This document shows positions 42,543 through 64,000 of a stretch of 64,000 nt of DNA, in pieces. Made by a program: the position numbers and the translations under genes. Each line of letters opens with the position of its first letter. The stretch's first letter is position 1. The notes below the pieces were generated by a model, which had not been told where the DNA came from, searched no databases, and saw only the letters and a program-made list of their open reading frames with translations. The stretch is from Nocardiopsis prasina DSM 43845 (lineage in GTDB: Bacteria; Actinomycetota; Actinomycetes; Streptosporangiales; Streptosporangiaceae): the NCBI RefSeq assembly GCF_000341265.1, contig NZ_ANAE01000096.1, positions 1-64,000 of the forward strand, written 5' to 3'.

Positions 42543-43295
42543 TCAGTGCCCCCGACCGGACTGTGGAATGGTGAGGACACCGATCTCGGGGGCCCCGGGC
42601 ACACCGGGCCCGCTGATCAGCTTCCCCGTCATTCCCGCTTCCTCAGCGAGGTCGGCGATGCTGAGGTTCTCCCACAGGTAGGTGTCGTGGGTGCTGCGCA
42701 CCACCGTGCCGTCGTGAAGCACCTTCCAGGTCGTCTCCCACCTGAGGATGTTGCCCTCGACAGGTTCGACCTGCATCCACCACTCGTAGGTCTGTTCGCC
42801 GATACGTTCGCGCAGCATCCGGAAGGGAGGGATCGCCTTGGCGGAGCCGGTGCCCATGAGTTCCACGATGATCGGTGCTCCGGGTGGAACGTGGTCGCCC
42901 AGCTTGCGCCAGAGTGCGGCTCGTTCGTCCTTGGTGAGGTGCCCGAGCACACCGAAGATGACCACCGCGCCCACACGATCGGGCAGGCGGATGTGCTGGG
43001 CGGGTTCGGCGCTGATGGTCACGCGAGACCGCAGGTCGACCTTGCCGAAGACGCGGCTGGTGAGCATGGCCCGCATGGGAGTCGAGGGTTCCGCGGCGAT
43101 GATTGGAGCACTGGGCAGGGCGGCCGCGATCACTTCGGTGATGCTGCCCGTGCCCGCGCCGATTTCGACGATGGGGCCGGTTCCGGCGTTGACACCGGCC
43201 AACGCGGTGCGCAGAGGTCCCGCGCTGGTGCGCACATGGCGTGCGGCGACCATTTCGTAGAACTCGGCTGAGGCCGTGTAGTAGTCGGCGACCAT
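42543..43295 (-). CDS. SAM-dependent methyltransferase of the metallophore cluster
   Basis: 250 residues. Motif I is PIVEIGAGTGSITEVIAAAL near residue 42, then AAEPSTPMRAML. It is similar across its length to the C-terminal half of the reductase fusion at 45537 (same YNEAAEFF/YTASAEFY start, IGAGxGxxT, EPxxxMRAxL, VLGHL, QTYEWWM/QRYEWWM). AGAAGGGA precedes the ATG. It follows the thioesterase with 25 bases between. Likely N- or C-methylates the thiazoline/thiazolidine product; which atom is unknown. Confidence 0.83.
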   Translation of the reverse strand: MVADYYTASAEFYEMVAARHVRTSAGPLRTALAGVNAGTGPIVEIGAGTGSITEVIAAALPSAPIIAAEPSTPMRAMLTSRVFGKVDLRSRVTISAEPAQHIRLPDRVGAVVIFGVLGHLTKDERAALWRKLGDHVPPGAPIIVELMGTGSAKAIPPFRMLRERIGEQTYEWWMQVEPVEGNILRWETTWKVLHDGTVVRSTHDTYLWENLSIADLAEEAGMTGKLISGPGVPGAPEIGVLTIPQSGRGH

Positions 43296-43320
43296 GGTGG
43301 TGTCCCTTCTAGCTGAGGTG

Positions 43321-44112
43321 TCAGGGTGTGCTGGGCCAGGTGGGTGCCGTGTCGCCGGGGTCCTGCCCGAGGGCCTGGGCGATGGTGGCCGCGACCCTGC
43401 GGCGCTGCTGCGCGAGGAAGAAGTGACCGCCAGGGAACACCTCGGTGGTGACCTCTCGGGTTGTCGTGGTCTCCCAGGTCGCCGCCGCTTCCACCGAGCA
43501 CTCCGGGTCCTGCGCACCGATGAGGACGTGCACGGGAATGTCGAGGGGTTTCGCCCTGGTCGGGTGGTAGGTCTCGATCAGTCGGTAGTCGTTACGCACG
43601 TAGCGCAGCACTGCTGTTCGTAGCTCCTCGTCGGCCAGGACCTCGGGCGGAGTGCCACCCAGACGAGTGAGGTCGGCTGCCAGATGGGCGTCGTCGCGCA
43701 GGTGGACGTCGCCGCGGTGGGCGTGGTGGGGTGCGGGCCGCCCTGACGCGAAGAGCCGGACAGGCGCTGGAATCGACCTCCGACGCGCTTCCACAGCCAC
43801 CTCGTAGGCCACAGCGCTTCCCATGCTGTGTCCCAAGAGCGCGTAGGGGCGGTCCGTGAGGGGGTCCAGTGCGTTGACGACTGCGTCGACGACTTCGTGC
43901 ATCGTGTCGACCATGGGGTCACCGAAGCGGTCCTCGCGCCCGGGATACTGCACGGTGAGCGCCTCGATGCCGGATGGCAGCAGGTACTGCCACGGGCGTA
44001 GCGAGGATGCCGATCCGCCGGCGTGGGGCAGGCAGATGAGGCGCACATCCGCCTGGGGGCGGCGCCGGGGCCTGCGCAGCCATGGGCTGAGGGGTGGGTG
44101 CTGCGGGTCCAC
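43321..44112 (-). CDS. Type II thioesterase (proofreading), NRPS-associated
   Basis: 263 residues, alpha/beta hydrolase of the GrsT/RifR group: RLICLPHAGGSASS, YPGREDR, nucleophile elbow LLGHSMGSAVAYEV, acid in IGAQDPEC, and the His in FPGGHFFL. It removes wrongly loaded or stalled acyl groups from carrier proteins. I chose GTG 44112, seven bases after AGGAG; a GTG at 44130 is upstream of that site. Divergent from the P450 gene, first of a two-gene unit with the methyltransferase. Confidence 0.87.
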   Translation of the reverse strand: MDPQHPPLSPWLRRPRRRPQADVRLICLPHAGGSASSLRPWQYLLPSGIEALTVQYPGREDRFGDPMVDTMHEVVDAVVNALDPLTDRPYALLGHSMGSAVAYEVAVEARRRSIPAPVRLFASGRPAPHHAHRGDVHLRDDAHLAADLTRLGGTPPEVLADEELRTAVLRYVRNDYRLIETYHPTRAKPLDIPVHVLIGAQDPECSVEAAATWETTTTREVTTEVFPGGHFFLAQQRRRVAATIAQALGQDPGDTAPTWPSTP

Positions 44113-44135
44113 GGGAGTTCTCCTGATCACGTTCT

Positions 44136-44154
44136 ATTCCACGCATAATGGAAT
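44136..44154. promoter_or_regulatory. Inverted repeat ATTCCA-N7-TGGAAT in the thioesterase/P450 gap
   Basis: A 19-base symmetric element, ATTCCA CGCATAA TGGAAT, 24 bases upstream of the thioesterase start. The 214-base gap is AT-richer than its flanks and carries a TTGACA at 44175-44180. It does not look like the Zur-like boxes at 60769 and 62586, so a second regulator may act here. Confidence 0.4.
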
Positions 44155-44326
44155 GGCTTTTAATGGCGCCGACATTGACAGCGCCAGTGATATTGGTCTC
44201 GAGTCGCGTTTTCGATTTCGTGTTGGAATTCAGATCCGCCCACTGTAAAGTCAGGCACGGGGATCTGTGGATTTATCCGCCTTCCCGTTTTCTCGCTCTA
44301 TTCTTCCAAGAAGGGCTGGTGTGCGT

Positions 44327-45547
44327 ATGTCCGACGCCGACGGGGTGAAGCTTCCGGCTTTTCCCATGCCGCGCGAATGCCCGTTCTCGGCTCCAAGCGC
44401 CTATGCCGACCTGCGACGGCGCGGCCCCGTGGCCCAGGTGCGCCTGCCCACCGGCCGCACCGCCTGGGTGGTGACCGGCTACCAGGAGGTGCGCGCGGTG
44501 CTCGCCGATCCCCGCGTCAGCGCGGACATCCGCAGGCCCGGTTTTCCGGCGCTGGTGGAGGGTGAGCAGGAGGCGGGCACGAAGACGACACCGTTCATCC
44601 GCATGGACCCGCCTGAGCACTCCCGGTTCCGCCGAATGCTGTTGGCGGAGATGACAGTGCGCAAGGCGCGTCGGATGCGCCGTGACATTCAGCGGGTCGT
44701 CGACGACCGCATCGATGAATTGCTGTCCTACGGCCCGCCCGCTGATCTGGTGACCCACTTCGCCCATGTGGTCTCCAGCACCGTCATGTGCGAGTTGATC
44801 GGGCTGCGTCGCGGCGACCCGCTGTTCCGGCGTGTCACCGAGACCCTCGGTTCCCAGGTCTTCGGCGGCGGTTCCAGCACCGCGGAGGGGGCCAGCGAGG
44901 GCATCGGCGCCCTGGGAGCGGTGGTGGAGGACGCCGTGCGTGCTCGGGAAAGCGACCCCGGTGAGGACCTGCTGAGTCGACTGGTCCACGAGCGGTTGCC
45001 CTCGGGTGAGCTGACTCGACAGGAACTGGTGACCACGATCAGCATTCTGATCGTCGCGGGCTGGGAGACCACCACCAATCAGATCGCCCTGAGCGTGCTC
45101 GCCCTGCTGCGGCGACCCGAGCTGCTCGACCGGTTGCGACGCGACCCCGCTGTGCTTCCTCAGGCTGTCGAAGAACTCCTTCGGTCCCTGTCCGTGGGCG
45201 ATTCCATCGCGCTGCGCACAGCCACGGAGGACATCGAGATCGGCGGCACCGTCATCCCTGCGGGCGATGGGATCATCCCGCTGCTGGCTGCGGCCGACCA
45301 CGACCCCACGGTGTTCCCCGACCCCGAACGCATCGACTTCGACCGCACTGGTAGGACCCACGTGGCGTTCAGCTACGGGATCCACCAGTGCGTGGGCCAG
45401 AACGTGGCCCGTCTCGAACTCGGGATCGCCATCGGAACCCTGGTCGACCGCATGCCCGGGCTCCGGGCCGCGGAGCCGTTCGAGTCGGTCCGGTACCGTC
45501 ACGACGGCATCGCGTTCGGGCCCGAACGGGTGCTCGTCACGTGGTGA
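44327..45547 (+). CDS. Cytochrome P450 of the metallophore cluster
   Basis: 406 residues, soluble bacterial class. I-helix AGWETTTNQ (about 244-252), EELLR of the K-helix (283-287), haem loop FSYGIHQCVGQN with Cys355. The ATG at 44327 lies 11 bases after AAGGG; GTG 44321 is an alternative with better spacing. It runs against the main operon and its last 11 bases overlap the end of the reductase fusion gene. The small ferredoxin at 62680 is its probable electron donor. It may hydroxylate or oxidise (for example aromatise) a ring of the product. Confidence 0.88.
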   Translation: MSDADGVKLPAFPMPRECPFSAPSAYADLRRRGPVAQVRLPTGRTAWVVTGYQEVRAVLADPRVSADIRRPGFPALVEGEQEAGTKTTPFIRMDPPEHSRFRRMLLAEMTVRKARRMRRDIQRVVDDRIDELLSYGPPADLVTHFAHVVSSTVMCELIGLRRGDPLFRRVTETLGSQVFGGGSSTAEGASEGIGALGAVVEDAVRARESDPGEDLLSRLVHERLPSGELTRQELVTTISILIVAGWETTTNQIALSVLALLRRPELLDRLRRDPAVLPQAVEELLRSLSVGDSIALRTATEDIEIGGTVIPAGDGIIPLLAAADHDPTVFPDPERIDFDRTGRTHVAFSYGIHQCVGQNVARLELGIAIGTLVDRMPGLRAAEPFESVRYRHDGIAFGPERVLVTW

Positions 45548-47501
45548 CCACCCCGTTCCCTGACGCTGTGAGCGTGCCCAGGTAGGGCACGCTCGCGGCG
45601 TGGGGCGCGGGCGCCGGAGTGAGGTGCAGACCGCTCTCCTCGGCGAGCTGTTCGAGTTCCAGGGTGTACCAGCGGTACTGCTCCCGGACCTCGCGTACGG
45701 GCCCGCCCTTGCGGAAGACGCGCCAGGTGGTGTCCAGGCGCATGCGGTCCGGCCCGTCCGGTTCGCCGGCCATCCACCACTCGTACCGCTGGTCGCCGAG
45801 CTCGCTGTGGCGCAGGAGTGTCGGGGGGATCGTCGTGGGCTCGCGCATGCCTGTCAGCTCGACGACGATCGGTGCGCCGGGCGCCAGGCGCCGCACCAAC
45901 TCTCTCAGGAGTTCGTGCCTCAGGTCGGGTTCGAGGTGGCCCAGTACCCCGCAGAGCACGGCTCCGGATATCCGCTCCGGTAGCGCCCCCGGCTCAAGCA
46001 GTTCTTCCGCGGCGTGGGGCAGAACGGTCACTCGCCGCGCGAGCTCGGGGTCATCGCCGACCCGGGCCGTGAGCAGGGCGCGCATACCCGCGGCGGGTTC
46101 GGTGGCGATCAGGTGGATGTCGGGGTAGGCCGATGCGACCTGCCGGGTGACCAAACCGCTGCCCGCGCCAATGTCCACGAGGGGACCAGCCTGCGGGTCG
46201 ATCCCGTTCAGGCACGCGACGACTGCGGGACCGGTGCGCGCGGTGTGCTCTCGCGCGCCGAGGTCGAAGAACTCCGCTGCTTCGTTGTAGTCCGACAGCT
46301 GTGCCGCGGGAGGGCGTGTCGGCTCACCGGGCAGGACTGGGCCCGACCGGGGGCTGCCGACCCGGGGGCCCGCCGCCTGCTCCGTCGGCGCCGCACCGGA
46401 TGTTGTGAGCGCGGAGGGGGCGAGGGGTTCGGGATCCGCCGGACGGATCAGTTCCGGAGGCCCCAGCCGCGCCATCAGGTCTCGCCAGAGCGCGAAGACC
46501 GCGAGGTCGTGTTGGGCCGAACGAAGCGGATCCGCGCCTGCGGCGATAGCCGCAGCGAACTTGTCGAGCGCCTCACTGATCGCCGCGGGCCACAGCTCCG
46601 AGAAGATGTCACAGATACGGGGCGGCGGACCGGCCTGACCCAGGATCGCCGAGGCCGGCAGCCGGAGTGCCTCGGCTCCCGGCTCAGGTGTGAACACCAG
46701 CCGGTGCCCGGAGTCCCGGGGGGAGTGCATGCGTGGGTGCCACAGGACCGGACCGTGGGTGTCGGCCAGTGTCAGGACGCCCCCTTCGGTCCCCACAGCC
46801 ACTCGGTGCCAGAAAAGGGAGTGGTTGTCGCGGTCTCCGGGGTGGATCTGGTTCTGGACTCTCAAGGTCAGCGGAGCGCCGGCGATGGCACCGTGCAGCA
46901 GGCGCAGCGGTGCCTCGCCGTTGGCGGCGGCGACGACGTCCTCGGGCAGTGGAGCCGGATCTCCCAGGCGCCAGGGCCGGGTACCACCCAGAGCTCGCGC
47001 CAGGATGTCGATCAGGGGGGCCAGGACGTGGACCGGGGCCGCCGCGTCGACGAAGAGGACGCGCTGCCGCTCTCTCAGCCTGGTCGCCGCCTCGATGAAC
47101 TCGCGCACCGGGGCCACATGCGGGTAGTGGGTGTTGACGTGGAACTGGCGGTTGGCCCGCCGCGCCCGGCGAAGGGACTCCGACAGCTCGTCGGGGTGCA
47201 TCGGGTGCTCCTGGAGCACGTGTACACCTCTGTCGAGCAGGGTGCACGTGAGTTCCGCCCCCCGGCCGCCCATGACTGCCGCGGGGACCGCCACGAAGGC
47301 GGCGTCGATGTCGTCGGGGAGCTCCTCCGGAGAGGTGTGGCAGGGTACGCCGTGCCCCTCTGCCAGTTCCCGCGAGTAACGGCTGCCTGTGGAGAGGATT
47401 CCCGCCAGGGTGAACCCCGGGTGGCGTTGGACGGCGTCAATGTAGAAGCGGCCGAAGTTCGTGCCGCAGACAACGGCGCGCAGGGGCGCTGACGCGCTCA
47501 C
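45537..47501 (-). CDS. Thiazolinyl imide reductase fused to a SAM methyltransferase
   Basis: 654 residues. Residues 1-350 are a thiazolinyl imide reductase of the Irp3/PchG type (AVVCGTNFGRFYIDAV, QEHPMHPDEL near 98-105, HYPHVAPVREFIE), which reduces one thiazoline to a thiazolidine with NADPH while it is bound to the NRPS. A Pro/Ala/Gly linker (351-400) leads to a methyltransferase (401-654; LVDIGAGSGLVTRQVAS at 441-457). Stop and start overlap those of neighbours; the start sits four bases inside the previous gene. Fusion of these two activities is uncommon; in yersiniabactin they are separate. Confidence 0.85.
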   Translation of the reverse strand: MSASAPLRAVVCGTNFGRFYIDAVQRHPGFTLAGILSTGSRYSRELAEGHGVPCHTSPEELPDDIDAAFVAVPAAVMGGRGAELTCTLLDRGVHVLQEHPMHPDELSESLRRARRANRQFHVNTHYPHVAPVREFIEAATRLRERQRVLFVDAAAPVHVLAPLIDILARALGGTRPWRLGDPAPLPEDVVAAANGEAPLRLLHGAIAGAPLTLRVQNQIHPGDRDNHSLFWHRVAVGTEGGVLTLADTHGPVLWHPRMHSPRDSGHRLVFTPEPGAEALRLPASAILGQAGPPPRICDIFSELWPAAISEALDKFAAAIAAGADPLRSAQHDLAVFALWRDLMARLGPPELIRPADPEPLAPSALTTSGAAPTEQAAGPRVGSPRSGPVLPGEPTRPPAAQLSDYNEAAEFFDLGAREHTARTGPAVVACLNGIDPQAGPLVDIGAGSGLVTRQVASAYPDIHLIATEPAAGMRALLTARVGDDPELARRVTVLPHAAEELLEPGALPERISGAVLCGVLGHLEPDLRHELLRELVRRLAPGAPIVVELTGMREPTTIPPTLLRHSELGDQRYEWWMAGEPDGPDRMRLDTTWRVFRKGGPVREVREQYRWYTLELEQLAEESGLHLTPAPAPHAASVPYLGTLTASGNGVVTT

Positions 47502-48643
47502 AGCTCACCGTCCTCGACGGCTGTGTCCACTTCACCGGGATTGGGGAGTGCGACAGTGTGCCGGTGGGTCGCGAACTCCGCGTCCCCGTTCGCGCGCAGC
47601 GCTGCCACCGTGGCGCGCGGATCCATGGCCTCGGCGGCGTAGTGCAGACCCCTGCCGATACGACCGGCCAGGACGTCCAGGACCGCGAGTGCCGCGACCG
47701 CCCCGCTGAGCTGGTAGCTGTTGTCGCTGTGGACCACGCATGTGCGTGCCCAGTCCTGGCCCGAGAGGCTGAACACCATCCGGTAGTAGGGGTCGCTGCC
47801 CGCGGCGTCGACCTCGGCGGCCCGACGGATGCGCCGGACCACCGCGTCCCGTTGCTCAGCGGTGTCCATCGGGAGCGTTGGCAGGGCGGTGAACAGCTCA
47901 CGCACCTGTGTTCCGGGGAAGACGGTGTACCAGTCGGCCTCGGCCAGGTCCATCCGTGCGGCCAGCCGCTCCACCTCGGCCGTCAGAAGCGGGTGCAGGG
48001 CGACCCTGTGGGGGAAGTAGGGGGCCTCGGCGCCGTCGGCCACCCGCAGGACTCTGTCCACGCTGCGGCCGTGACGCCATGCGGCCAAGGGGCGGCCGAA
48101 CCGCTCGCCGCCCGCTCCCCCGGTGTCCAGGGAGAGCACGATGTCGGCCGCCACGCTCTCGGTCGCGTGTTCCAGCCCGCCGGCGTAGCCGGTCATCCTG
48201 TGTGCTGGCCCCTCTGTCTGGTCGGCTCCGGCGAGCCAGAGGGGGATGAGACCCGCCAGTCCGGGGACGGTGCCGGCCGACAGGACGACACAGCGGTCCG
48301 ACCCGACCGCGCCCGACCGCGTCAGGGATTCGTGGACGGGGTCGTCGCCCAGGACGTCGACGACGTCAGCTCCGGCGGCCAGACCGGCCCGCACGACGGT
48401 GTCCTTGAGCAGGTAGCTCGGACCGGCGCAGTTGACCAGCAGGGTGCAGCCAGCGCTGAAGCGGGCAAGTGAGGCGGGGTCCAGGGCGTCGACCTCGACG
48501 GCCTCGCTTCCTTCGGGCCAGGGGCCGGAGGGGATGGCTGAGGGGCGCCTCGCCCCCAGCCGCAGCGGTCCCACTCCGGCTTTGGTCAGGGCGGCGGCGG
48601 TGTGGCGACCGACCGCGCCTGAGGCGCCGATGAGGCCGATCAT
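47498..48643 (-). CDS. Saccharopine dehydrogenase-like NAD(P)-binding protein
   Basis: 381 residues. Rossmann start MIGLIGASGAVGRHTAAAL, then NCAGPSYLLKDTVVRAGLAAGADVVDVLGD, as in saccharopine dehydrogenase-like and trans-acting enoyl reductase families. Overlaps NRPS2 by four bases (ATGA) and the reductase fusion by four. It is therefore part of the assembly line operon. Similar proteins sit in related thiazoline siderophore clusters of actinobacteria, as far as I recall, but the reaction is unknown. Possible roles: reduction of a second imine or release-linked redox step. Confidence 0.75.
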   Translation of the reverse strand: MIGLIGASGAVGRHTAAALTKAGVGPLRLGARRPSAIPSGPWPEGSEAVEVDALDPASLARFSAGCTLLVNCAGPSYLLKDTVVRAGLAAGADVVDVLGDDPVHESLTRSGAVGSDRCVVLSAGTVPGLAGLIPLWLAGADQTEGPAHRMTGYAGGLEHATESVAADIVLSLDTGGAGGERFGRPLAAWRHGRSVDRVLRVADGAEAPYFPHRVALHPLLTAEVERLAARMDLAEADWYTVFPGTQVRELFTALPTLPMDTAEQRDAVVRRIRRAAEVDAAGSDPYYRMVFSLSGQDWARTCVVHSDNSYQLSGAVAALAVLDVLAGRIGRGLHYAAEAMDPRATVAALRANGDAEFATHRHTVALPNPGEVDTAVEDGEL

Positions 48644-51600
48644 GACGTCTTCCCTTCGATGATCTCGTGCAGGTGGCCGTCCACGGTGGGGACGTTCTCA
48701 CCCGTCATGCAGGTGAAATGCTCGCCGGGGATGTCGCGGGTGCGCAGATCGCCGAGGCAGATCCGGGCCCAGTGGTCAGCGATGGTGTCGGCGCTTCCAG
48801 GGAAGGGGTAGGCGCCGTTGTGCCGCAGGAAGGTGATGTCACCCGCGTAGGGTTCGGCGCGGTGCCGACTCAGAGCGAAGATGCTCTGCTGGTAGGTGCG
48901 CAGCGCCCTGAGCAGGCCTTCGGGCTCGTAGGTTCCGGCGAGCTCAGGGGGCAGGGCCTCGCACATGCGAGTGACCCGGGCCATGCGGGGCACCGCTTCC
49001 AGCGCCTGGAAGGAGGCCGCCACATCTGCGAACTCGTCGTCCAGGTCGGCGATCGCCCCGTCCAGGACGGCGCCGGGGGAACGGTCGAGAACGGCCGAGA
49101 CCGCGGCCCCGGCCCGCTCGGAGTCAGCGGGGAATCCGATGTCGGCCGGTTCGATGCCCATCATGAGCGCGAAGGAGTACTCGGAGAGCAGTTCGTCGTC
49201 GATACGGAACGTCGGGCTGTGGCTGCTAATGACCGTGAGGCTGCGGACGGTGGCTCCGGCCTCGGAGAGTCCTCGGGCCACCTCGGTGGCGATGACACCC
49301 CCCACGCAGTACCCGACGACGTCGACCTGTGTGTGGCCGGCGTCGAGCAGGGCACGCACGTACTCGGCGGCTGTGCGGTCGATGAGCCCGTTCGGGTCGG
49401 CGTTGCGGAAGTCCTCGGGCGTCGGCAGCTCCAGACCCACCAGTCCGTGTCCCGCTCCGGAGCGGGCACGGAACCGGGTGACCAGAGGACGGTACGGGAG
49501 CAGGGTGCCCGTTCCGGCGTGCACGAGCACGGTCACCGGAGCGTCGGGCCCGGGCGCGATCAGCTCCACCAGCGCGGAGTTCTCAGCGTCCGTCTCCGCT
49601 TCGGGTGCGGAGAGTTCGCGCAGGTAAGCGGCGAGTCCGGCGATGGTCGGCTGGCGCAGCAGGTGGCGTAGAACGACCTCCCATTCGAGATCCCACTCGT
49701 GTCCGGCCAGCCCGTCACGGAGCCGCCCGACGATCCGGGCCACCAGCAGTGAGTCGCCGCCGAGCGCGAAGAGGTCGTCGTCGCGACCGATGCGCTCTGT
49801 TTCGAGCAGCTCGGCCCACAGGTCGGCCAGAGCACGTTCGAGGTCGTCGCGGGGCGTCTGGTCGCCTGCCTCCTCGGCGGGGCCCGTTCCCAGCTGCAGC
49901 GACCGCTTCTCCAGAGCGGTGCGGTCCAGCTTGCCGTTCTCCGTCCTGGGCAGGGCGTCGACAACTTCCCAGTGCGAGGGAACCGAGTATTCGGGGAGGA
50001 GTTCGTGGCTGCGTCGTGTCAGTGACGACACCGCGACCGGGGCGTGCAGGGGTTTGACCTGGACCAGGTACAGGTGCTGGCCGAAGGCCCCGGCCGCTTC
50101 GGAGCTCTCGGGGAACTCGGCGGCGATGCGGCGGTCCCGACCGTTGAGCAGTTCCCGCCACTGTTCGTGGCGCAGGAAGGACTGTTCCTGCGCCTGGCGA
50201 ACATCGGTGAAGGGTCCGGCGTGTTCGGCCATGAACTCCGCGGAGATGCGGAGCGCGTGGTCGTCGTCGTTGGTGTTGGCCAGCAGGAGCATCCAGCCGC
50301 CGGGCGCCACCAAGGTGGAGAGTCGGTCGAGGGCCGCTTGTGCGTCGGGGAGGTTGTCCACGACTCCGACGCAGACCAGCAGGTCCACGGAGTTGCGTGC
50401 CAGCCCCTGCTCGGCAGGGTCGTGCGCGGGGTCGAAGGCCGCGCAGCGCACGCGCGGGTCGTCGGCGTGGGTCTGCTCGAACGCGGAGCGGTTCTGAGCC
50501 GACGCGTCGGCCCCCAGGTAGTCGACCGGGTGGTCGGCCAGAGCGGGTAGCAGGGTGTTGGCCACCCCGCCGCCGCGCAGCCCGACCTCCATGATCCGCA
50601 GGGGGTCGGAGGTGTCTCTGGTGCGTGCGATCTCGGTGGCAGCGGCGGCCAGGACCGAGCGCAGCGCCGAGGATCCCGCGTTTTCCGCGTAGGCGGCGGT
50701 CAGCGCCCGGAGGTCAGCACCGGAGAACGGCCGGGCGGCTGCCTCCTCCCGACCCGCGATCAGGGCGGGCAGGTGTTCGGCGCTGGAACGCACCGTGGCG
50801 AACAGCTCGGGGCTCCACCCCGCACGGCTTTCGAGCCGGGAGGCCTCGTCCCAAGCGAGGGCGATGGCCTTCGGGTCCGGAACGCGCAGAGCGGTCAGCT
50901 TTCCTTGGGGAGTCCGCTCCAGGAGGCCTGCGGTCAGGAGCCCCTTCAGCCAGCGTCGCACCAGCCGGTGGTGCTCGGGGGCTGCTCCCAGGGTTTCGGA
51001 CACCTCCTGCGGCGAGCGGGCACCGCCATCAGCGAAGGCCGGCGCGAGGGTGTCGGCGATGGATGCCAGGGCCGCTTCGCTGAACGCGGCGCGGAAGGCG
51101 GCCAACTCCGCGATGTCCACCTGCTCCTCGACCCGCAGGGCTGCGGTGCGCACAGCCGGGAGCAGTGTCTCCGGGAGAGGGAGGGGGGTGTCGCGGTGAG
51201 CGGGTTCGACGAAGGCGGTCAGGCTTTGGCCTGCGCCGGTGGGTGCGTTGCCGCGCCCGCCGGTGAGTACGACCGCGGCAGCGCCCACCTCGGGCAGCGA
51301 CTCCACGGCGGCCTGGACCTCACCGAGCTCGATCCGGTAGCCGCGGATCTTGACCTGGTGGTCCTCGCGGCCGAGGAACTCGATCACCCCGTCGGGCCAG
51401 TAGCGGCCCAGGTCACCGGTGCGGTAGAGCCGCTCACCGGTTTCCGGGTGCCGGATGAACCGTGCCGCCGTCCGCTCGGGGTCGCCGAAGTAGCCCTGGG
51501 CCAGTCCGATACCGCCGATGTGGAGCTCGCCGACGACCAGGTCGGGACAGGGGCGCAGTGCCGTGTCCAGGACGTGGAACGTCTGGTTGTCCATGGGCCT

Positions 51601-57100: not shown

Positions 57101-60100
57101 CGCTGTAGTGGTAGGTGCCGACCCCGCCGAGGGAGAGCCTGCTGTCGCGACCGATCCAGAACGCCCGCTGGACGTCGGTCATGGGGAAGGGCTGGTGGCG
57201 GTTGGCGTGGTCGCCCTCTCCCAGGGTTGTGCCGGTCGGTGGCGCCTGCCGGGTGAGTGTGGCGGCGAAGTCGGCCAGTGTGGGCGAGGAGAACAGGCGT
57301 GCGACCCCCGCGCCACCGGCACCGCGCTCACGCAGGGCGCCGATCATCCGGGTTGCCAGCAGCGAGTCACCGCCCAGCGCGAAGAAGCCGTCGTCGCGCC
57401 GGATGACCCTGACACCGAGGAGCTCGCTCCAGACCTCGGCGACCACGGTCTCGGCCCACCCGCGAGGGGACTGCTCTTCGGCGCGGTCGCCTTCGTCGGG
57501 GGTGCGGTTGTTCGCGGACGCCGCCAGTTCCTCGGCGCGTCGCCGGTCGGGCTTGCCGTTGGTGGTCAGAGGGAGGGCGTCCACCAGTACGAGCTGGGAC
57601 GGGACCATGTAGGAGGGGAGGTTGCGCTCCAGGGTGGCGCGCAGCTCCGCTTCACCCGCTGTCCCCTCCCCTGTGGCCGCCAGGAGGGCGAGCCTGCGCG
57701 GTGTGCCCGTGATGAGAGCCACCGCGGTCGAGACCCCCGGTGTGGAGGCGGCAGCCGCTTCGACCTCGCCCAGCTCGATACGGTGTCCGCGCAGTTTGAC
57801 CTGGTGGTCCGCGCGGCCGAGGAATTCCAGGACTCCGTCGGAGCGGTACCGTGCCCGGTCTCCGGTGCGGTACCACCGGCGCCCCTGCTCGGTGACGAAC
57901 TTCTCGGCGGTGCGCTCGGGGTCGCCGCGGTAGGCGGTCGCCAGTCCGGCACCGCTGACCCACAGCTCGCCAGCGACCCAGTCGGGGCGGTCTCGGCCGT
58001 GGTGGTCCACGACCCGGGCCCGCATGTTGGGCAGGGGGAGGCCCCATGGGATCGAGACCCAGGAGGGATCGACCTGGTCGACCTCGAACACGGTGGAGTG
58101 CACGGCTGCTTCGGTCATCCCGCCCAGGGCGGTGAACCGGGCTTCCGGGGCCAGCGCGCGCAGGCGCGCGGGCTGGTCCAGGCCGACCCAGTCGCCGCCG
58201 AGCAGGACGAATCGCAGGTGGTCGCCGAGTCCGTCGGGGTGTGACTCGGCCGCGGTCAGGACCATGTCGAGCAGGGCGGGGACGCAGTTCAGGAGTGTGA
58301 CCCCGTGCTTGCGCATCATCGTGGCCCAGTGGTGGGCGTCGCGTCGGGCCTCGTCGCTGATGAGGACCACTGCCCCGCCTGCGGACAAGGGCGCGAAGAG
58401 GTCGTAGACGGACATGTCGAAGTCCAGGTCCGCCAGTGCCAGGCCTCGGTCGTGCGGTCCGACGTCGAAGTGGTCGTTCAGGGCGGCGATGGTGTTCATC
58501 GCGGCCCCGTGCGCGACCTCCACGCCCTTCGGAGTGCCGGTGGATCCGGAGGTGAAGATGATGTACGCGGTGCTGTCGAGGCTCTGGTGGAGTTCCGGCG
58601 GGACTGGGGCGAGCCGGTCCGCGTCTTCGATCCGCACGACGGGTGGTCCCTGCCGCCCCGGTGCGGGGGCGGTGAATCGGTCGGTGTGCGCGGCGTCGGT
58701 GAGCACTGCGGCGGCGTCGGCCACACCGAGGACGCGTCGGGTGCGTTCTGTCGGCTGTTCCACTCCGATGGGGATGTAGGCCGCGCCCGCGCCGAGGATG
58801 CCGAGGACAGCGGCCACCTGTCGCACGCCGCGGGGCAGGCTGACCACGACCGCGTCGCCCGGTTCCACGCCCGCCCGGGCCAGGAGCGCGCTGACACGGC
58901 CCGCGCTTTCGGCCAGAGCGGCGTAGGTCACCGGCTCGCCGGTATCAGGGAGCAGGGCCGGGGCGTCCGGTCGTTCGCGTGCGGCACGGAAGAAACCCTC
59001 GTGCAGCCGTTCGGTCACGGTCGGCGCATCGGTGGCGTTGACGGTTTCGCGTACTCGGGCCTGGGCTTCGGGCAGGGGCGGGTTCGCGGGCCTGGACCAG
59101 GCTGCGGCGTCATCGACAAGGGTCTCGACGAGGTCGCGGTAGGCCGCGAACGCTGCTTCGGGCACACCGGGTTCGAACGCGTGGTGCCGTACGTCCCAGT
59201 TCAGGAGCAGCCCGCCGTCGAGTTCGGTCACCTGGGCGTCGAGCCAGACCTGGGGGCCCTGGGAGATGATCCACACCGGGTCGCCGAACGTGCCGCGGAC
59301 CGCGGAGTCGTAGATTTCTCCCAGGCCCAGGGCGCTGGTGTAGACGACGGGGGCCAGGGTCGGCACGCCGTCGTGGGCTCGGGAGAGGTCGCGGAGGACT
59401 TCGACACCGGAGTAGGAGCCGTGGGCGGCCGCTGTGCGCAGGCGGCTCTGCACGTGACGCGCGGACTCAGCGAAGGTTCGCTCCCGGGTGAGGTCGACGT
59501 CGAGCAGGATCGAGCTGCTGAAGTCACCGACGAGTGATTCGGCCCCGTCCAGGTCCAGGTCGCGGTGGAACAGCGGCAGGTTCAGCAGGAATCTCGGGGA
59601 GTCGCTCCAGGCGCCGAGTGCTTCGGCGAAGGCGCCCGCCAAGGCGGCGGCGGGGGTGACCCGGTGTCTGCGGGCAGCAGCCAGCAGCTGTTGCTTGCGC
59701 TCGGGGTCGAGCCAGTGGTGCAGCCGTGTGGTCGGGTGGAAGCGTGCCGTGGCCGAGTCCGGGTCGAGCGGGTCGACGACGGTGGGCAGGGCTGGTGGGG
59801 CGCTCAGCGATTCCAGGTTCTCGCTCCACCAGGCGCGGTCCTCCTCGCGCTCCCGCGCTCGAGTCGTCTCGGTGGCGTTCAGGTAGGAGCGGTAGTCCAG
59901 GGGGATCTGCGGAAGTGCCGCGTCGGGGTCGGCGTAGAGCAGCTGGAGATCGCGCAGCAGCACCCGCATGCTCGCGGCGTCGGCCGCCAGCATGTCGAGG
60001 TCGATGTGCAAGCGGGTGGCCCCGCCGGGGCGGAGTGTCAGAGCGAGATCGAACACCTCGCCCCTCTCGACGTCCATACGCCTGTGGGTGTAGTGGTCGC

Positions 60101-60686
60101 GCAGTTCAGCGAGCACTCGGTCGACCCGTTCCGGGGTCTCGCTGGTCAGGTCGCGCACGTTCAGCGCGGGTGTTGTCGGGTGGTCCAGGACGCGCTGTCG
60201 TCCGTCGTCGAGCACGGTGACGCGGAGCATCCCGTGACGGCGGCGCAGCGCTGTGACGGCGGTTTCGAGGCGTGCCGGGTCGACGTCTGTGCCGTCGAGC
60301 TCGGCGTAGAAGTGCGCGCCGACCCCGCCGAGGGGCTGGCCTTCCTGGCGTCCGATCCAGTAGGCGTGCTGCATGGCGGCGAGCGGGAACGGTTCGTTCG
60401 GGCTCTCCCCCGCGGGGTCGGCCCCCTGGGATGAGGTGACCGGTGCCAGGAGTTGCTGCCAGCCGCGCAGGCTCGCTGCTTCCGCGAGTTCATCGAAGCC
60501 GACCGTCAGGCCCGCGCGTCGCCATCGAGCGGCCAAGCGCATCAGGGCGATGGAGTCCAGGCCGAGCTCGAACAAGTCGTCATCAGGTCCGATCTCCGCC
60601 GGTGGGAGGTCCACCAGTGCGGCAATCGCGGCGCGCAGCTCTCCCTGCGTCATGGGCACCGTTGGCGGATCGGCTGGCTGGGACAC
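54102..60686 (-). CDS. NRPS1: ArCP-Cy-A-PCP-Cy-(degenerate A)-PCP
   Basis: 2194 residues. ArCP 10-80 (LGLDS, S45); Cy1 97-540 with D231...D236...S239; A1 555-1055 (FTSGSTGTPKG 711-721, YRTGD 939-943, K1045) with pocket code DMYNLGLVH, five of nine like Cys; PCP1 with S1108; Cy2 1165-1605 with D1299...D1304...S1307; A2 about 1615-2095, which has lost the core motifs (A3 reads YVTVDTGPDGHDTT, no TGD, and the A10 Lys is Ala2088); PCP2 with S2143. GTG start at 60686 after AAGGAGA. Builds aryl-bis(thiazoline) from salicylate and two Cys. Confidence 0.9.
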   Translation of the reverse strand: MSQPADPPTVPMTQGELRAAIAALVDLPPAEIGPDDDLFELGLDSIALMRLAARWRRAGLTVGFDELAEAASLRGWQQLLAPVTSSQGADPAGESPNEPFPLAAMQHAYWIGRQEGQPLGGVGAHFYAELDGTDVDPARLETAVTALRRRHGMLRVTVLDDGRQRVLDHPTTPALNVRDLTSETPERVDRVLAELRDHYTHRRMDVERGEVFDLALTLRPGGATRLHIDLDMLAADAASMRVLLRDLQLLYADPDAALPQIPLDYRSYLNATETTRAREREEDRAWWSENLESLSAPPALPTVVDPLDPDSATARFHPTTRLHHWLDPERKQQLLAAARRHRVTPAAALAGAFAEALGAWSDSPRFLLNLPLFHRDLDLDGAESLVGDFSSSILLDVDLTRERTFAESARHVQSRLRTAAAHGSYSGVEVLRDLSRAHDGVPTLAPVVYTSALGLGEIYDSAVRGTFGDPVWIISQGPQVWLDAQVTELDGGLLLNWDVRHHAFEPGVPEAAFAAYRDLVETLVDDAAAWSRPANPPLPEAQARVRETVNATDAPTVTERLHEGFFRAARERPDAPALLPDTGEPVTYAALAESAGRVSALLARAGVEPGDAVVVSLPRGVRQVAAVLGILGAGAAYIPIGVEQPTERTRRVLGVADAAAVLTDAAHTDRFTAPAPGRQGPPVVRIEDADRLAPVPPELHQSLDSTAYIIFTSGSTGTPKGVEVAHGAAMNTIAALNDHFDVGPHDRGLALADLDFDMSVYDLFAPLSAGGAVVLISDEARRDAHHWATMMRKHGVTLLNCVPALLDMVLTAAESHPDGLGDHLRFVLLGGDWVGLDQPARLRALAPEARFTALGGMTEAAVHSTVFEVDQVDPSWVSIPWGLPLPNMRARVVDHHGRDRPDWVAGELWVSGAGLATAYRGDPERTAEKFVTEQGRRWYRTGDRARYRSDGVLEFLGRADHQVKLRGHRIELGEVEAAAASTPGVSTAVALITGTPRRLALLAATGEGTAGEAELRATLERNLPSYMVPSQLVLVDALPLTTNGKPDRRRAEELAASANNRTPDEGDRAEEQSPRGWAETVVAEVWSELLGVRVIRRDDGFFALGGDSLLATRMIGALRERGAGGAGVARLFSSPTLADFAATLTRQAPPTGTTLGEGDHANRHQPFPMTDVQRAFWIGRDSRLSLGGVGTYHYSEFDGADFDLHRFERVWTILVERHEMLRAVFDEDGQQRILRQVPSVTVAVTEVDSEEEASTVLTRLRDDASHLSIDLTRWPLFELRAVRYPSGGTTRTRLAVGLDYIVLDAASIIALYGELDRLYSDPETELEPIDVSFRDYVLQSEPDPDSVELARQHWMRRLRTLPPAPALPLVADPSTVEHPRFTRRQRPVHARSWQAITDKARAHGLTPSVVLLTCYAEVLSSWSDQPDVTVNLTLFNRQPVHPHIDLIMGDFTSVSLLGYEPRAGEPWTAAAHRLQLVMSEDLDNRDASVTWLLQELAKRTGAVDAAMPVVFSSSVGVGDRTVKDLSDGFPEKVWGISQTPQVLLDNQVTESHGGVMVTWDAIEELFRPGVLDAMFEAYNAMLAWLAENDWDTVAPTVLPRAQADARRPALGTAPAADTLHGEVLRQAQKLPHSPAVLRTPQNESLTYGGLAARATRVAGGLAARGVGADDVVAITLPPGADQVVAILGVLSTGAAYLLSDPGTPRSQREHEQRAAGARTVIVGSGHADEPDEVDLGDLVAADPLRGDLAADPGAPAYVTVDTGPDGHDTTVEFIEHRAVLATITAVRENFGIDTQDRMLAADPPSAGVNAFTVFGPLGVGGALVCPRADRTGSGAPSPAALVAEHGVTLWNGPPMLLEELITAASAHEGEPLRSLRLALVSGDRVSTGLPGRLRGASGGGARLVALHGGHGTAGWASAVESHSDTDGSVTSGRPLAGHQLHIVDSVGRERPDQVIGDLWIGQLHAQPEPALTGASGSPGRLRPAGVRARYLSDGTVEFLGPDPQAVLSGRRIDLSAVASALESHPHVTQSAVVTVGQGRERRLHAFMVTTGGEDPEGLSRHLADLLPPFAVPARLTRLPRLPLTADGAVDRGALTEAAVSEEHAASGPPTGETEIQIATLWKELLGTGADHRYADFFAAGGDSLTALRLVTATGEAFGVDVSVRSFLTASTLADLARQVDHALASRDEEESGTL

Positions 60687-60768
60687 GCGTGATCGTCTCC
60701 TTGGCTCGCGAGGGGCTGGGGGCCGACCGGGACCGCTGGGGCACGGGGGTCGGTGACATGAGTGAAAA

Positions 60769-60783
60769 CGAAAACCGTTATCT
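60769..60783. promoter_or_regulatory. Zur-like box in the NRPS1/ligase divergent region
   Basis: Reverse strand AGATAACGGTTTTCG: about 12 of 15 positions agree with a TGAAAACGGTTTTCA-like actinobacterial Zur site; core GAAAAC-C-GTTATC has one mismatched pair. A further TGAAAACG lies just left. It is 70 bases before the ligase ATG and 85 before NRPS1, well placed to control both. Confidence 0.5.
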
Positions 60784-60850
60784 TTTTACCCTAAGCGGGG
60801 CGTTGAGCGCGATCCCCCCTTGTGTGGCATAAGACGCAAAAGGAGCAGAG

Positions 60851-62521
60851 ATGATCAACCGTGCAAACCATCCCGAAGCGGCCAGAGAGCCGGACTGGCC
60901 CGGGTGGCCGCAGGAGGAGCGCCAGCGCTATGAGGCAGCCGGATTCTGGCGCCCGGAAACCCTGGCCGACCTACTGGAGCATCAGGCGGAGCAGCGCCCT
61001 GAGGCCATCGCGCTCGTGGACGGCCGAGCCCGGTGGTCCTACGCGGAACTGGCCGACGAGGCCCGAGCGGTGGCAGCGGGGCTGCACCGCCGAGGGCTGC
61101 GCCGGGGGGACCGGGTGGTGGTGCAGCTGCCCAACCGGGCGGAGTTCCTGCTGGTCTGGTTCGGCCTGCAGTACCTCGGCGCGGTCCCGGTCCATGCCAT
61201 GCCCGGACACCGCGAGCACGAGATCTCCCACCTTCTCCGGGTCACCGGCGCCGTCGGCTACGTCGTGGCCGACCGCCACTCCCGGTTCGACTACCGGACG
61301 CTGGCCGCATCCATGCGTGAGAGGCACGGGGAGCTGCGCCATGTGGTGGTCGTCGGCGACACCGGCGAACTCGAGGGCGCCATCGGCTTCGAGGAACTGC
61401 GCACCGACGCCTCTGCCGACCTCTCCCCCGGTGGGGAGCGCCCCGCTGCCGGCGACATCGGACTGCTCCTGCTCTCCGGCGGGACGACGGGCACGCCCAA
61501 ACTCATCCCGCGCACACACCGGGACTACGCCTACAACGCCCGCGCCGCCGCTGCCGCCGCGGGCCTGACGCCGGACAGCGTCTACCTCGCGGTACTGCCA
61601 GCCGCCTTCAACTTCACGATGTCCTGTCCGGGAATCCTGGGCACGCTGACCGTCGGCGGGACCGTGGTGATGGCACCCAACCCGGCCCCTGAGACAGCGT
61701 TTCCCCTGATCGCCCGCGAGAAGGTGACGGTCACGGCGCTGAGTCCCCCGATGGTGCCCGTGTGGTTGGAGGCCCACGCCGACCGGGACCCGGGTTCAGC
61801 CGAACTCGACAGCCTCTCGGTCCTGCAGGTGGGGGGAGCCCGACTGGCCAACGAGCTCGCACGCCGTGTCCGCCCGGAGCTGGACTGTCGTCTGCAGCAG
61901 GTGTTCGGCATGGCCGAGGGACTGATCAACGTCACCCGCCTCGACGACCCCGATGATCTGGTGTGCACCACGCAGGGACGGCCCATCTCGTCCGGCGACG
62001 AGGTGCGGGTGGTCGACGAGTCGGACGCCGTGGTGCCCACGGGAGCCGTGGGTGAGCTGCTGACCCGGGGGCCCTACACCCTGCGCGGCTACTACCGCGC
62101 CCCGGAACTCGCCACCACGCACTTCACGTCCGACGGCTTCTACCGCACCGGTGATCTCGTCCGCCTCCATCCGACCGGTCACATCGATGTCGTGGGCCGG
62201 GTGAAGGACCAGATCAACCGTGGTGGAGAGAAGATCGACGCCACCGAGGTCGAGAGCCAGATGCTCACTCACCCGGACGTGTCGGCGGCGGCCTTGGTAG
62301 CCGCACCCGATCCGGATCTGGGCGAGCGCTCGGTCGCCTTCCTGGTCTGCAAGGGCTCCCCGCCCACCGCCCGCGAGCTCGGCGCGTTCCTGCGCGGCAG
62401 GGGGTTGGCGGGCTACAAGGCTCCCGACCGGATCGAAGTCGTCGAAGAACTTCCCCTGACCGCCGTGGGCAAGGTCGACAAGAACGCTCTGCGCGCACGC
62501 GACCAGGGAGCCACGCGGTGA
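60851..62521 (+). CDS. Salicylate-AMP ligase (aryl acid-activating enzyme)
   Basis: 556 residues, stand-alone aryl adenylation enzyme of the YbtE/MbtA/DhbE group: GWPQEERQRYEAAGFW start, P-loop SGGTTGTPK (209-217), YRTGD, and C-terminal GKVDKNAL with the catalytic Lys. The aryl-pocket block is LPAAFNFTMSCPGILG (249-264): Cys259 in SCPG points to salicylate over 2,3-dihydroxybenzoate. The usual His of HNF is Phe253, which is unusual. AAAAGGAG precedes the ATG. Activates salicylate and loads ArCP S45 of NRPS1. Divergent from NRPS1. Confidence 0.88.
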   Translation: MINRANHPEAAREPDWPGWPQEERQRYEAAGFWRPETLADLLEHQAEQRPEAIALVDGRARWSYAELADEARAVAAGLHRRGLRRGDRVVVQLPNRAEFLLVWFGLQYLGAVPVHAMPGHREHEISHLLRVTGAVGYVVADRHSRFDYRTLAASMRERHGELRHVVVVGDTGELEGAIGFEELRTDASADLSPGGERPAAGDIGLLLLSGGTTGTPKLIPRTHRDYAYNARAAAAAAGLTPDSVYLAVLPAAFNFTMSCPGILGTLTVGGTVVMAPNPAPETAFPLIAREKVTVTALSPPMVPVWLEAHADRDPGSAELDSLSVLQVGGARLANELARRVRPELDCRLQQVFGMAEGLINVTRLDDPDDLVCTTQGRPISSGDEVRVVDESDAVVPTGAVGELLTRGPYTLRGYYRAPELATTHFTSDGFYRTGDLVRLHPTGHIDVVGRVKDQINRGGEKIDATEVESQMLTHPDVSAAALVAAPDPDLGERSVAFLVCKGSPPTARELGAFLRGRGLAGYKAPDRIEVVEELPLTAVGKVDKNALRARDQGATR

Positions 62522-62585
62522 CCTTGTGCGACCGAAGCGACACGTAAGGCGTTGCGACCCCAGCCACACACGCACACGCTTCTAA

Positions 62586-62603
62586 TGAAAATGATTATCA
62601 TTT
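62586..62603. promoter_or_regulatory. Zur-box candidate TGAAAATGATTATCA
   Basis: TGAAAATGATTATCA matches 14 of 15 bases of the TGAAAATGATTTTCA consensus that I recall for Streptomyces Zur, and contains the perfect palindrome AAATGAT-T-ATCATTT (62589-62603). It is 77 bases before the ferredoxin start. The same sequence is also near to proteobacterial Fur boxes, so the metal is not settled by the site alone. Confidence 0.65.
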
Positions 62604-62679
62604 ACGATCAATCGGACAGCGCCCTCGGGTGCTCAGCGGCCCTGCCCGGGCCGCTCCACAGTGAAGGGGACGTTCTCGC

Positions 62680-62877
62680 GTGCGCATCACCGTCCACAGC
62701 GAGGTCTGTATCGGCGCTGGCCAGTGCGTCATCGCCGCCGACCGCGTGTTCGATCAGGGCGAGGAGGACGGGCTGGTACGTCTACTCACCGACCGGCCCG
62801 ACTCCCGCGACGCCGCACGCGTGCGCGATGCGGTCGATCGCTGCCCGTCCGGCGCGATCGAGTTCACCTCGGACTGA
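62680..62877 (+). CDS. 3Fe-4S ferredoxin, probable P450 partner
   Basis: 65 residues, small actinobacterial ferredoxin: MRITVHSEVCIGAGQC with the CxxxGxC-type pair (C10, C16) and C55 in CPSGAI. Only three cluster cysteines, hence a 3Fe-4S type, the form that usually feeds actinobacterial P450s. The GTG at 62680 follows GAAGGGG. It lies 20 kb from the P450 of the cluster but within the same gene set, and upstream has the Zur-like box. To my memory the coelibactin locus of S. coelicolor likewise contains a small ferredoxin. Confidence 0.85.
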   Translation: MRITVHSEVCIGAGQCVIAADRVFDQGEEDGLVRLLTDRPDSRDAARVRDAVDRCPSGAIEFTSD

Positions 62878-63150
62878 CCCCGGGGCCCGCCCCATCCACC
62901 CTCACCCCCAGCCAGCACGCGAAGGGACGATGACCGGCCTCGGCCGACTCGACCTCGCGTGCGAGTGACAGCGGCCGCGGTCGTCGAACCGGCACCGGCT
63001 CGGCACGTGTGGCCCGCGCCGGGCCCGCAGACAGGCGACCGGGCCCCGAAGAAGCGACCATCCACTGGCCTCGAAAACAGACCGGAGACGAATGTTGACC
63101 ACGGGCACACCAGTTACGGCCCTCGAGCCGTCCGGGACAAGGAGCCGGCC
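62878..63150 (+). other. Gap of 273 bases between ferredoxin and salicylate synthase
   Basis: No gene of normal size. A 12-codon frame, ATG 62930 to TGA 62968 (MTGLGRLDLACE), has GAAGGGA in front and could be a leader peptide or chance. No hairpin attenuator could be fixed by eye. Confidence 0.3.
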
Positions 63151-64000
63151 GTGAGCCGTAGCGAAACCGAACAGGTCGAAGGCCCGCTCGACCCCGTCGC
63201 GGCCGCCGCGCGGCTCGCGGCCTCCGGCCCCTTCTCCGAATACGTCCTCTACGAGCGCGACGGGGTCTGGCTCTTCGGCGGCGGAGTGCGCTGGGGAGTC
63301 GACCTCGACAGCGACCGGGTCACGGTCCGCGGCGCCGAGGGGATCGTCGACTCCCGCCCCTACACGGGCAGCCCGGCCGACACACTGGCCGAGACCCTGG
63401 CCGCTCTGCCCGAAGAGTCCTGGCGGGCCTACGGCTGGGTGGGGTTCGACTTCGCGCTCCACTCCCGCGCGGCGGCCCCCGCGCTCCGCAGGGAACACGC
63501 GCGGCTCGCCCGCCTCATCGTGCCCCGGAGCGAAGTCCGCATGACCGTGGGCGGGGCCCACATCAGCGGGGGCTCAGCCCAGATGCGCCAGAAGGTGCGC
63601 TCCGTGCTGAGCGAACGGGTCTCCGAAACGGAGCGGACCCGCGTCACGATCGACTCGCAGAACAACTCCCAGGCCTACGTCGGGCTCGTGAGCGAGGCCC
63701 TCACCGAGATCGACCGCGGCCTCTACGACAAGGTGATCCTGTCGCGCAAGGTGAACGTGCCCTTCGCCGTCGACATCCCCGCCACCTACGTGGCCGGACG
63801 CCGGGCCAACACCCCCGCCCGGTCGTTCCTGCTGGATGTCGATGGGCTCCGCAGCGCGGGCTTCAGCCCCGAACTGGTCGTCACTGTCGACGGGGATGGC
63901 GAGGTGCTGACCAATCCGCTCGCGGGCACTCGGGCGGCCGGTAGGGGCGCGGAGGCCGATGCTGCGGCCCGCGCCGAGCTGCAGTCCGACCCCAAGGAGA
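63151..64000 (+). CDS. Salicylate synthase (chorismate-utilising), partial, runs off the window
   Basis: 283 residues visible of about 450. The GTG at 63151 follows AAGGAG. Seen: GPFSEYVLYERDGVWLFGGG, YGWVGFDFALH, YDKVILSRKV, ARSFLLDVDGLRSAGFSPEL, VTVDGDGEVLTNPLAGTRA, the order known from Irp9 and MbtI, which convert chorismate through isochorismate to salicylate. The catalytic Glu and metal-binding residues lie beyond the end. Its product is the substrate of the ligase at 60851. Confidence 0.9.
   Translation, partial: MSRSETEQVEGPLDPVAAAARLAASGPFSEYVLYERDGVWLFGGGVRWGVDLDSDRVTVRGAEGIVDSRPYTGSPADTLAETLAALPEESWRAYGWVGFDFALHSRAAAPALRREHARLARLIVPRSEVRMTVGGAHISGGSAQMRQKVRSVLSERVSETERTRVTIDSQNNSQAYVGLVSEALTEIDRGLYDKVILSRKVNVPFAVDIPATYVAGRRANTPARSFLLDVDGLRSAGFSPELVVTVDGDGEVLTNPLAGTRAAGRGAEADAAARAELQSDPKE

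Follow-up and report, generated by a model that had tools for sequence, protein, structure and literature searches.

We analyzed a 64,000-nucleotide stretch of the draft genome (6.0 Mb) of Nocardiopsis prasina DSM 43845, i.e., positions 1–64,000 of contig NZ_ANAE01000096.1 (C96, 92,464 bases; hereafter “the window”), which carries a coelibactin-type metallophore gene cluster beginning at 42,543 and extending past the window to ~71.2 kb of the contig. The cluster is ordinary in gene content and regulation for a known, chemically unsolved family, and unusual in that the second adenylation (A) domain, A2, of its first nonribosomal peptide synthetase (NRPS1) has lost its catalytic motifs, a loss common to a whole clade of relatives and absent from the initial annotation of this DNA. 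Gene content, motif losses, the single clade, and the Zur-box-like sites can be read in the sequence itself, and from these we infer chemistry, carrier loading, metal, and regulation. Specifically, we favor with modest confidence a Zur-repressed zincophore pathway of the coelibactin family, in which A1 would provide threonine or serine for an oxazoline, A2 would be dead, and the peptidyl carrier protein PCP2 would be charged by another domain.

NRPS1 (54,102–60,686, minus strand) consists of an aryl carrier protein (ArCP) followed by Cy1-A1-PCP1-Cy2-A2-PCP2, where Cy denotes a cyclisation domain. While A1 and the A3 domain of the second synthetase, NRPS2, display the full core motifs TSGSTGxPKG and YRTGD, A2 (54,363–55,889, minus strand) has lost core motifs A3, A5, A7, and A10: the aligned places read VDTGPDGHDT, RPAGV, and TADGAVDR, and Gly stands in place of Asp235 in a hand alignment. 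Because these core motifs are gone, A2 should be unable to adenylate and, as far as motifs tell, should be catalytically dead.

To place this loss among relatives, we used the 80 best of 194 confirmed relatives from a genome-contig scan with the cluster's oxidoreductase. A2 motifs were degenerate in 12 of these loci (L063–L073 and L079), intact in 52, and not covered or partial in 16. Together with the window, the degenerate loci make up 13 members, all of which lost the ATP-binding motif A3 and the Asp of motif A7, both intact in 52/52 other covered loci. The Lys of motif A10 was lost in all seven members in which it was readable, six of these readings coming from a regular expression without a match in the remaining six clade loci. 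The 13 members form one clade (support 1.0) in the NRPS2 tree, where L082, L092, and L099 are partial sequences, and the drop in conservation between 22 intact and 13 degenerate sequences was largest in the motif A3 block (0.88 to 0.50). A2 remnants otherwise vary among clade members. Among the near outgroups, L074, L075, and L123 display PKA instead of PKG in an otherwise intact motif A3.

Pairwise Nei-Gojobori estimates, with domain borders set by hand, gave a ratio of non-synonymous to synonymous substitution rates (dN/dS) for A2 of 0.40 to Nocardiopsis alborubida and 0.39 to Streptomonospora nanhaiensis, compared to 0.14–0.24 for Cy1, A1, and Cy2, and of 0.65 and 0.52 to two Streptomyces. 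Overall, A2 evolves faster than its neighbors yet remains under neutrality. Some observations weigh against our reading of A2. ArCP and the NRPS2 methyltransferase (MT) domain were also fast (both 0.33 to S. nanhaiensis), as were, to the two Streptomyces, PCP2 (0.53 and 0.34) and MT (0.50 and 0.45). In addition, the A2 of L066 keeps a full Cys code and that of L067 keeps Asp235, even though motifs A3 and A7 are gone in both; the motif losses are therefore common to the clade while the decay of the binding pocket is uneven.

The clade-wide loss of A2 motifs (13/13 members) would also be expected if the second module were skipped, giving a shorter product, or if the whole pathway were decaying. 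We consider this improbable: the motifs of Cy2 and PCP2 (GGDSL) are intact in the window, Cy2 displays dN/dS values of 0.14 and 0.20, and the A2 reading frame is maintained in 13 genomes (Nocardiopsis, Streptomonospora, and Streptomyces), with no stop in the aligned stretches. From the alignment, we infer instead that A2 is a retained non-catalytic domain. We would put even chances on a scenario of a single loss of catalysis in the middle A domain, predating the split between the Nocardiopsis and Streptomyces cluster lines, after which this domain was kept inert while the Cys domain of the second protein came to charge two carriers. If so, the degenerate-A2 clade would be a natural intermediate toward the yersiniabactin layout, from which the surplus domains are gone.

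In the pathway we propose, chorismate would be converted to salicylate, which the ligase would activate for loading onto the ArCP of NRPS1. The first ring, an aryl-oxazoline, would be built by Cy1, A1, and PCP1, most likely from threonine (or else from serine). A second ring, derived from cysteine, would be added through Cy2 and PCP2, with the dead A2 kept as a structural part, and Cy3, A3, MT, and PCP3 would add the last cysteine. The charging of PCP2 would fall to another domain, most likely A3, the Cys domain of NRPS2, which would thus act on a carrier of a different protein. Tailoring of the rings, which are probably N-methylated in the predicted product, would involve the reductase-methyltransferase fusion, the oxidoreductase, the cytochrome P450 with its ferredoxin, and the free methyltransferases, and a Cys-type thioesterase (TE) would release the chain. 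Finally, a peptide/nickel-type ATP-binding cassette (ABC) importer would return the metal complex, and zinc-loaded Zur would shut three promoters.

The main rival for PCP2 loading is A1 acting in cis on both PCP1 and PCP2, in which case the second ring would be an oxazoline too, or both would be thiazolines if A1 takes cysteine. A1 lies on the same chain as PCP2, its code is uniform across the clade (see below), and synthetases with a single A domain are known for yersiniabactin, micacocidin, and equibactin. On the other hand, A2 displays a Cys-type code in 52/52 intact relatives, so that the ancestral second ring probably contained sulfur, and since A3 has a Cys code as well, loading by A3 would preserve the ancestral chemistry. 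A1 in cis is also at odds with PCP2 being less PCP1-like in the clade than outside of it, and we regard it as rather doubtful. The carrier sequences do not favor A3 either: PCP2–PCP3 identity was not higher in the clade (35.8%, 11 loci giving data out of 12 sought) than outside (37.2%, 36 loci), and the decrease in PCP2–PCP1 identity (36.2 vs. 45.6% outside, standard deviation 13.3) was not matched by a drift of PCP2 toward PCP3. Co-adaptation of PCP2 with PCP3 or PCP1 was accordingly discarded as a pointer to the loading domain. No free-standing A domain besides the ligase was found among homologues of window proteins in the cluster flanks (upstream flank in 8/12 clade relatives), the rest of the genome not having been searched.

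The nature of the first ring was evaluated through the A-domain codes. Cy1, Cy2, and Cy3 each display DxxxxDxxS, read by eye in the translations, in agreement with the three cyclisation domains initially proposed. From these, the initial annotation had derived three cysteines and a salicylate-tris(thiazoline), which would require each module to use its own A domain. Three intact Cy motifs and the Cys code of A3 are consistent with such a product, as is the A1 code, DMYNLGLVH, at 5/9 positions. However, Cy domains form oxazolines as well as thiazolines (PMC9547227), A2 has neither ATP-binding motifs nor Asp235, and A1 departs from the Cys code at 236, 301, 330, and 331. Compared to the codes given for heterocyclised Cys (DLYNLSLIW) and Thr (DFWNIGMVH; PMC12283262), A1 is half Thr-like, with Gly301, Val330, and His331 as in Thr. 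By count this code fits Thr and Cys equally (5/9 each), which weighs against our assignment of the first residue. The strings DMYNLGL, DLWQLGL, DLYSMGL, and DLYNLGL were not found in the open-licence papers searched, and on inactive A domains the same literature yielded a single paper (PMC8399204).

Nevertheless, DMYNLGLVH was found in the window and all 11 clade loci with A1 covered, and Gly301 with His331 in 30/30 first-module loci compared, where Cys domains have Ser and Trp. A Cys-type code in the domain preceding A2 in some loci (e.g., L078, L083, and L104) runs counter to a uniform first-module rule; since some relatives' synthetases have more modules (e.g., a 3521-aa frame at G414), these domains may not belong to first modules. 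In studied relatives, too, the first ring is an oxazole or oxazoline, either established or predicted: that of sorangibactin derives from serine by feeding, despite an antiSMASH prediction of cysteine (PMC10127202), the first A domain of the mupirochelin pathway is predicted to take threonine (PMC10080011), and a methyl-oxazoline is predicted for coelibactin (PMC10127202), all of which supports an oxazoline. The product is thus better drawn as an aryl-oxazoline with two thiazol(id)ines, and we give the tris(thiazoline) little credence.

Next, we examined the initial suggestion that the cluster is probably zinc-regulated, which was borne out by three Zur-box-like sites. In Streptomyces coelicolor, Zur represses SCO7676-92, Zur-enriched regions include the promoters of SCO7676 and SCO7681/7682, and the Zur motif is given as tGaNNatSatNNtCa (PMC5472717). 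The predicted Zur box TGAAAATGATTATCA (62,586–62,600), located before the ferredoxin and salicylate synthase genes, is one of three exact matches to this motif in the genome, the other two being at window position 23,211, outside the cluster, and at C180:20182. A tighter pattern with ≤1 mismatch yielded 24 genome sites vs. 8 for a reversed control. We scored sites with a same-genome matrix built from seven sites chosen by pattern search, the scores of which are not independent of that pattern. Five of the seven lie beside apparent znuA, rpmG/rpmE2/rpmF, CobW-type GTPase, znuBC plus Fur-family, and FecCD-type ABC operon genes (neighbors judged by eye from open reading frames (ORFs), the Fur-family gene by profile). 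Across contig positions 1–80,000, six sites scored >11 bits and those at ≥19 bits (60,769, 62,586 with 28.8 bits, and 71,248) were all in the cluster, while each of ten Markov-resampled copies contained 0 or 1 site >11 bits.

The third site, CGAAAACCGTTATCT (60,769–60,783, strand not assigned, 19.5 bits), between NRPS1 and the ligase, has a 13-nt core identical to that of the site before the rpmG-like gene of the same genome. Two features count against it: both of its outer positions depart from the motif, and the window shows no excess of this motif form over chance (6 sites with ≤2 mismatches vs. 2.70 expected; 8/100 shuffles reach 6). The case for this site comes instead from position and conservation at the NRPS1 start: among 19 upstream stretches, from 19 of 29 genomes, 16 had a ≥15-bit site at most 150 nt from the start of the NRPS1 frame, compared to 37/1140 random 300-nt windows of the same stretches. 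Also unfavorable are the three relatives without a site, i.e., Micromonospora (L197), Nocardia donostiensis (L198), and Thermocatellispora (L206). The cluster promoters therefore appear to carry Zur boxes like the organism's own Zur sites, a reading that is strong for 62,586 and contig 71,248 and weaker for 60,769.

A Fur-family regulator of 131 aa (contig 70,747–71,139, minus strand), beyond the window and beside the importer operon and the site at 71,248, is a linked Zur paralogue, nearest to Mycobacterium tuberculosis FurB (annotated as zinc uptake regulation protein) and to 3mwm, a metal uptake regulator of S. coelicolor that we take to be its Zur. Relatives of this paralogue with at least 46% identity occur in 25 of 40 genus genomes, its own included, nine of them within ~25 kb of a coelibactin-type reductase match. 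At the importer end of the S. nanhaiensis cluster, a short stretch (L189:11391–11549) resembles the paralogue (44% over 48 aa) and is perhaps a remnant, while a complete relative (54%) is found at another place of what is presumably the same genome (G001).

Zur regulation alone does not prove which metal the product binds. The compound could be an iron rather than a zinc metallophore, or the sites could serve a different regulator of the Fur family, for instance the linked paralogue: published work treats both sorangibactin and mupirochelin as siderophores (PMC10127202, PMC10080011), another genome site precedes an ABC operon with a FecCD-like permease, and the cluster has a further gene of Zur type next to it. 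We consider this unlikely, as the sites resemble both the S. coelicolor Zur motif and those before apparent znuA, rpmG/rpmE2/rpmF, and CobW-like genes, and the coelibactin cluster of S. coelicolor is itself Zur-repressed (PMC5472717).

All genes of the initially proposed set were recovered by profile search, although salicylate synthase is cut by the window edge and the cluster continues beyond. A free S-adenosylmethionine-dependent methyltransferase (MT2; 42,543–43,295, minus strand; Methyltransf_25/12/11), with a homologue in most relative loci listed, is followed by a type II thioesterase (43,321–44,130, minus strand; PF00975, 184.9 bits) and the P450 (44,267–45,547, plus strand). A thiazolinyl imide reductase with a fused C-terminal methyltransferase (45,537–47,501, minus strand; TIGR01761, 310.7 bits against a cut-off of 188.8; PF21390, Methyltransf_12) adjoins the NAD(P)-binding oxidoreductase (47,498–48,643, minus strand). 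The latter, first described as saccharopine-dehydrogenase-like, lies at the place of SrbE of the sorangibactin (srb) cluster but matches only NAD_binding_10 and Epimerase in Pfam, with no NCBIfam match at E 0.001; on the basis of gene place and the published description of SrbE (“saccharopine dehydrogenase-like”), we tentatively equate the two. NRPS2 (48,640–54,105, minus strand) consists of TubC_N docking-Cy3-A3 (DLYNLSLIW, Cys) with inserted MT-PCP3-TE, the TE having a Cys nucleophile (GYCVGG). Most likely, NRPS2 starts at 54,105, where an ATG overlaps the NRPS1 stop, and MT2 at its first ATG, 43,295, the longer listed ORFs (to 43,517 for MT2) appearing over-extended.

On the plus strand, the salicyl-AMP ligase (60,851–62,521) matches solved dihydroxybenzoate- and salicylate-AMP ligases, including PchD. 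It shares with PchD and 5wm2, a salicylate-AMP ligase, a Cys at a position which we take to be Ser240 of DhbE and at which ligases for salicylate differ from those for dihydroxybenzoate. A one-cluster ferredoxin (62,680–62,877; Fer4_19, 46.1 bits), the presumed P450 partner, precedes salicylate synthase (62,959–64,000, continuing to contig 64,467; TIGR03494, 492.7 bits for the whole protein, cut-off 325.15), about two thirds of which lie in the window. Beyond it are a second free methyltransferase (contig 64,532–65,389) and the ABC importer (contig 65,768–70,515; SBP_bac_5), whose substrate-binding protein matches NikA-type models far under their cut-offs. Instead of the two methyltransferases first counted, profile searches thus identified four units, of which one belongs to the reductase fusion and one to NRPS2, with one free unit on either side of the window edge.

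Outside the cluster, a catalase HPII-like gene (39,818–42,178; 1023.8 bits, just below the cut-off of 1102) adjoins its start, and a 1084-aa ORF may, as a guess, form a formate-dehydrogenase-like pair with the protein after it, which contains several cysteine clusters of ferredoxin type (30,473–34,653). In the window, no RNA family reached its gathering score, no tRNA was found, and short tandem repeats gave nine rows.

Assignment to the coelibactin family, as initially proposed, is consistent with gene content shared with coelibactin-type relatives, the ArCP-Cy-A-PCP-Cy-A-PCP plus Cy-A(MT)-PCP-TE layout, the Cys TE nucleophile, and a thiazolinyl imide reductase adjoining an NAD-binding oxidoreductase. 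The P450 also has as its nearest solved relative 3tyw/4fxb (436.6 bits vs. 305.5 for the next chain), presumably CYP105N1 of the S. coelicolor coelibactin cluster. Three working A domains are not found here, and neither is the single A domain of the yersiniabactin type, since three adenylation-type domains are present, the degenerate A2 spanning ~500 aa. Because the degenerate clade nests inside the coelibactin family in the NRPS2 tree, we take the degenerate A2 as a variant within that family and not as a defining difference. Oxidoreductase and NRPS2-like sequence share a locus in the relative rows surveyed (L097 and L098 excluded, L096 and L099 in part only), with the oxidoreductase 89% identical to that of N. 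alborubida and 84% to that of S. nanhaiensis. The TE nucleophile is Cys in 61/81 NRPS2 sequences, including the window. The other 20 (L074, L085, L087, L104–L106, L108–L110, L112, L114, L115, L123, L128, L130, L132–L134, L139, and L140) display GYSVGG (16) or GAHVGG or GAHGGA (4) at the aligned place.

Coelibactin clusters have been reported by antiSMASH in S. nanhaiensis (PMC12842786), presumably at the 84% relative locus analyzed here, and as a 90% match in a study of one Nocardiopsis and one Rhodococcus, in a passage that names no strain (PMC11475406). The cluster type is therefore already known in the Nocardiopsis group, the variant part being the clade-wide silenced A2; no product was reported for it in the open-licence literature searched. 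Coelibactin itself was the first proposed bacterial zincophore, its product being given as unidentified both there (PMC3430247) and in PMC10127202. Nocardiopsis-type producers under zinc limitation may offer a route to the compound. Automatic structure prediction could be misled by a clade that breaks the one-module-one-activation rule, and such a clade would provide a clean system for asking which A domain serves a carrier when that of its own module is dead.

Finally, we compared the cluster to known systems. The S. coelicolor coelibactin cluster (SCO7676-7692) was represented by those of S. coelicoflavus, S. tendae, S. ardesiacus, and others, the solved P450 alone coming from S. coelicolor. 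These Streptomyces clusters share the ligase divergent from NRPS1, NRPS2, the oxidoreductase, the reductase-methyltransferase fusion, P450, type II thioesterase, methyltransferase, salicylate synthase, and Cys-type TE. That of S. coelicoflavus additionally has the ferredoxin and the ABC importer, and the start of its NRPS1 carries a Zur-box-like site (17.1 bits). The Streptomyces clusters differ by an intact Cys-type A2, an A1 code of DLWQLGLVH, an opposite P450 orientation, and two ABC genes after MT2, none being seen there in the window, L063, or L064. Kineochelins, considered because coelibactin is named in the paper describing them, were set aside: another cluster of the producing strain is their source (PMC13238742).

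As described, the sorangibactin cluster of Sorangiineae MSr11367 has a similar seven- plus five-domain NRPS pair, SrbE, two methyltransferases, P450, reductase, and a Cys-type TE, whose nucleophile is also reported for coelibactin, and sorangibactin, which formic acid hydrolysed, ends in a thiolactone; unlike here, a substrate is assigned to every A domain, and SrbJ and a LysR regulator are present (PMC10127202). Mupirochelin, from Pseudomonas NCIMB 10586, is likewise predicted to be an aryl-oxazoline with thiazol(id)ines, its first A domain taking Thr, and liquid chromatography–mass spectrometry suggests zinc chelation, but its second A domain is predicted to couple Cys (PMC10080011). Yersiniabactin-type systems (HMWP2/HMWP1, equibactin, and micacocidin) are described with three Cy domains and fewer active A domains, as in the window, and equibactin EqbM likewise as saccharopine-dehydrogenase-like. 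A single A domain is reported in all of these, however, whereas the window has its degenerate A2 still present.

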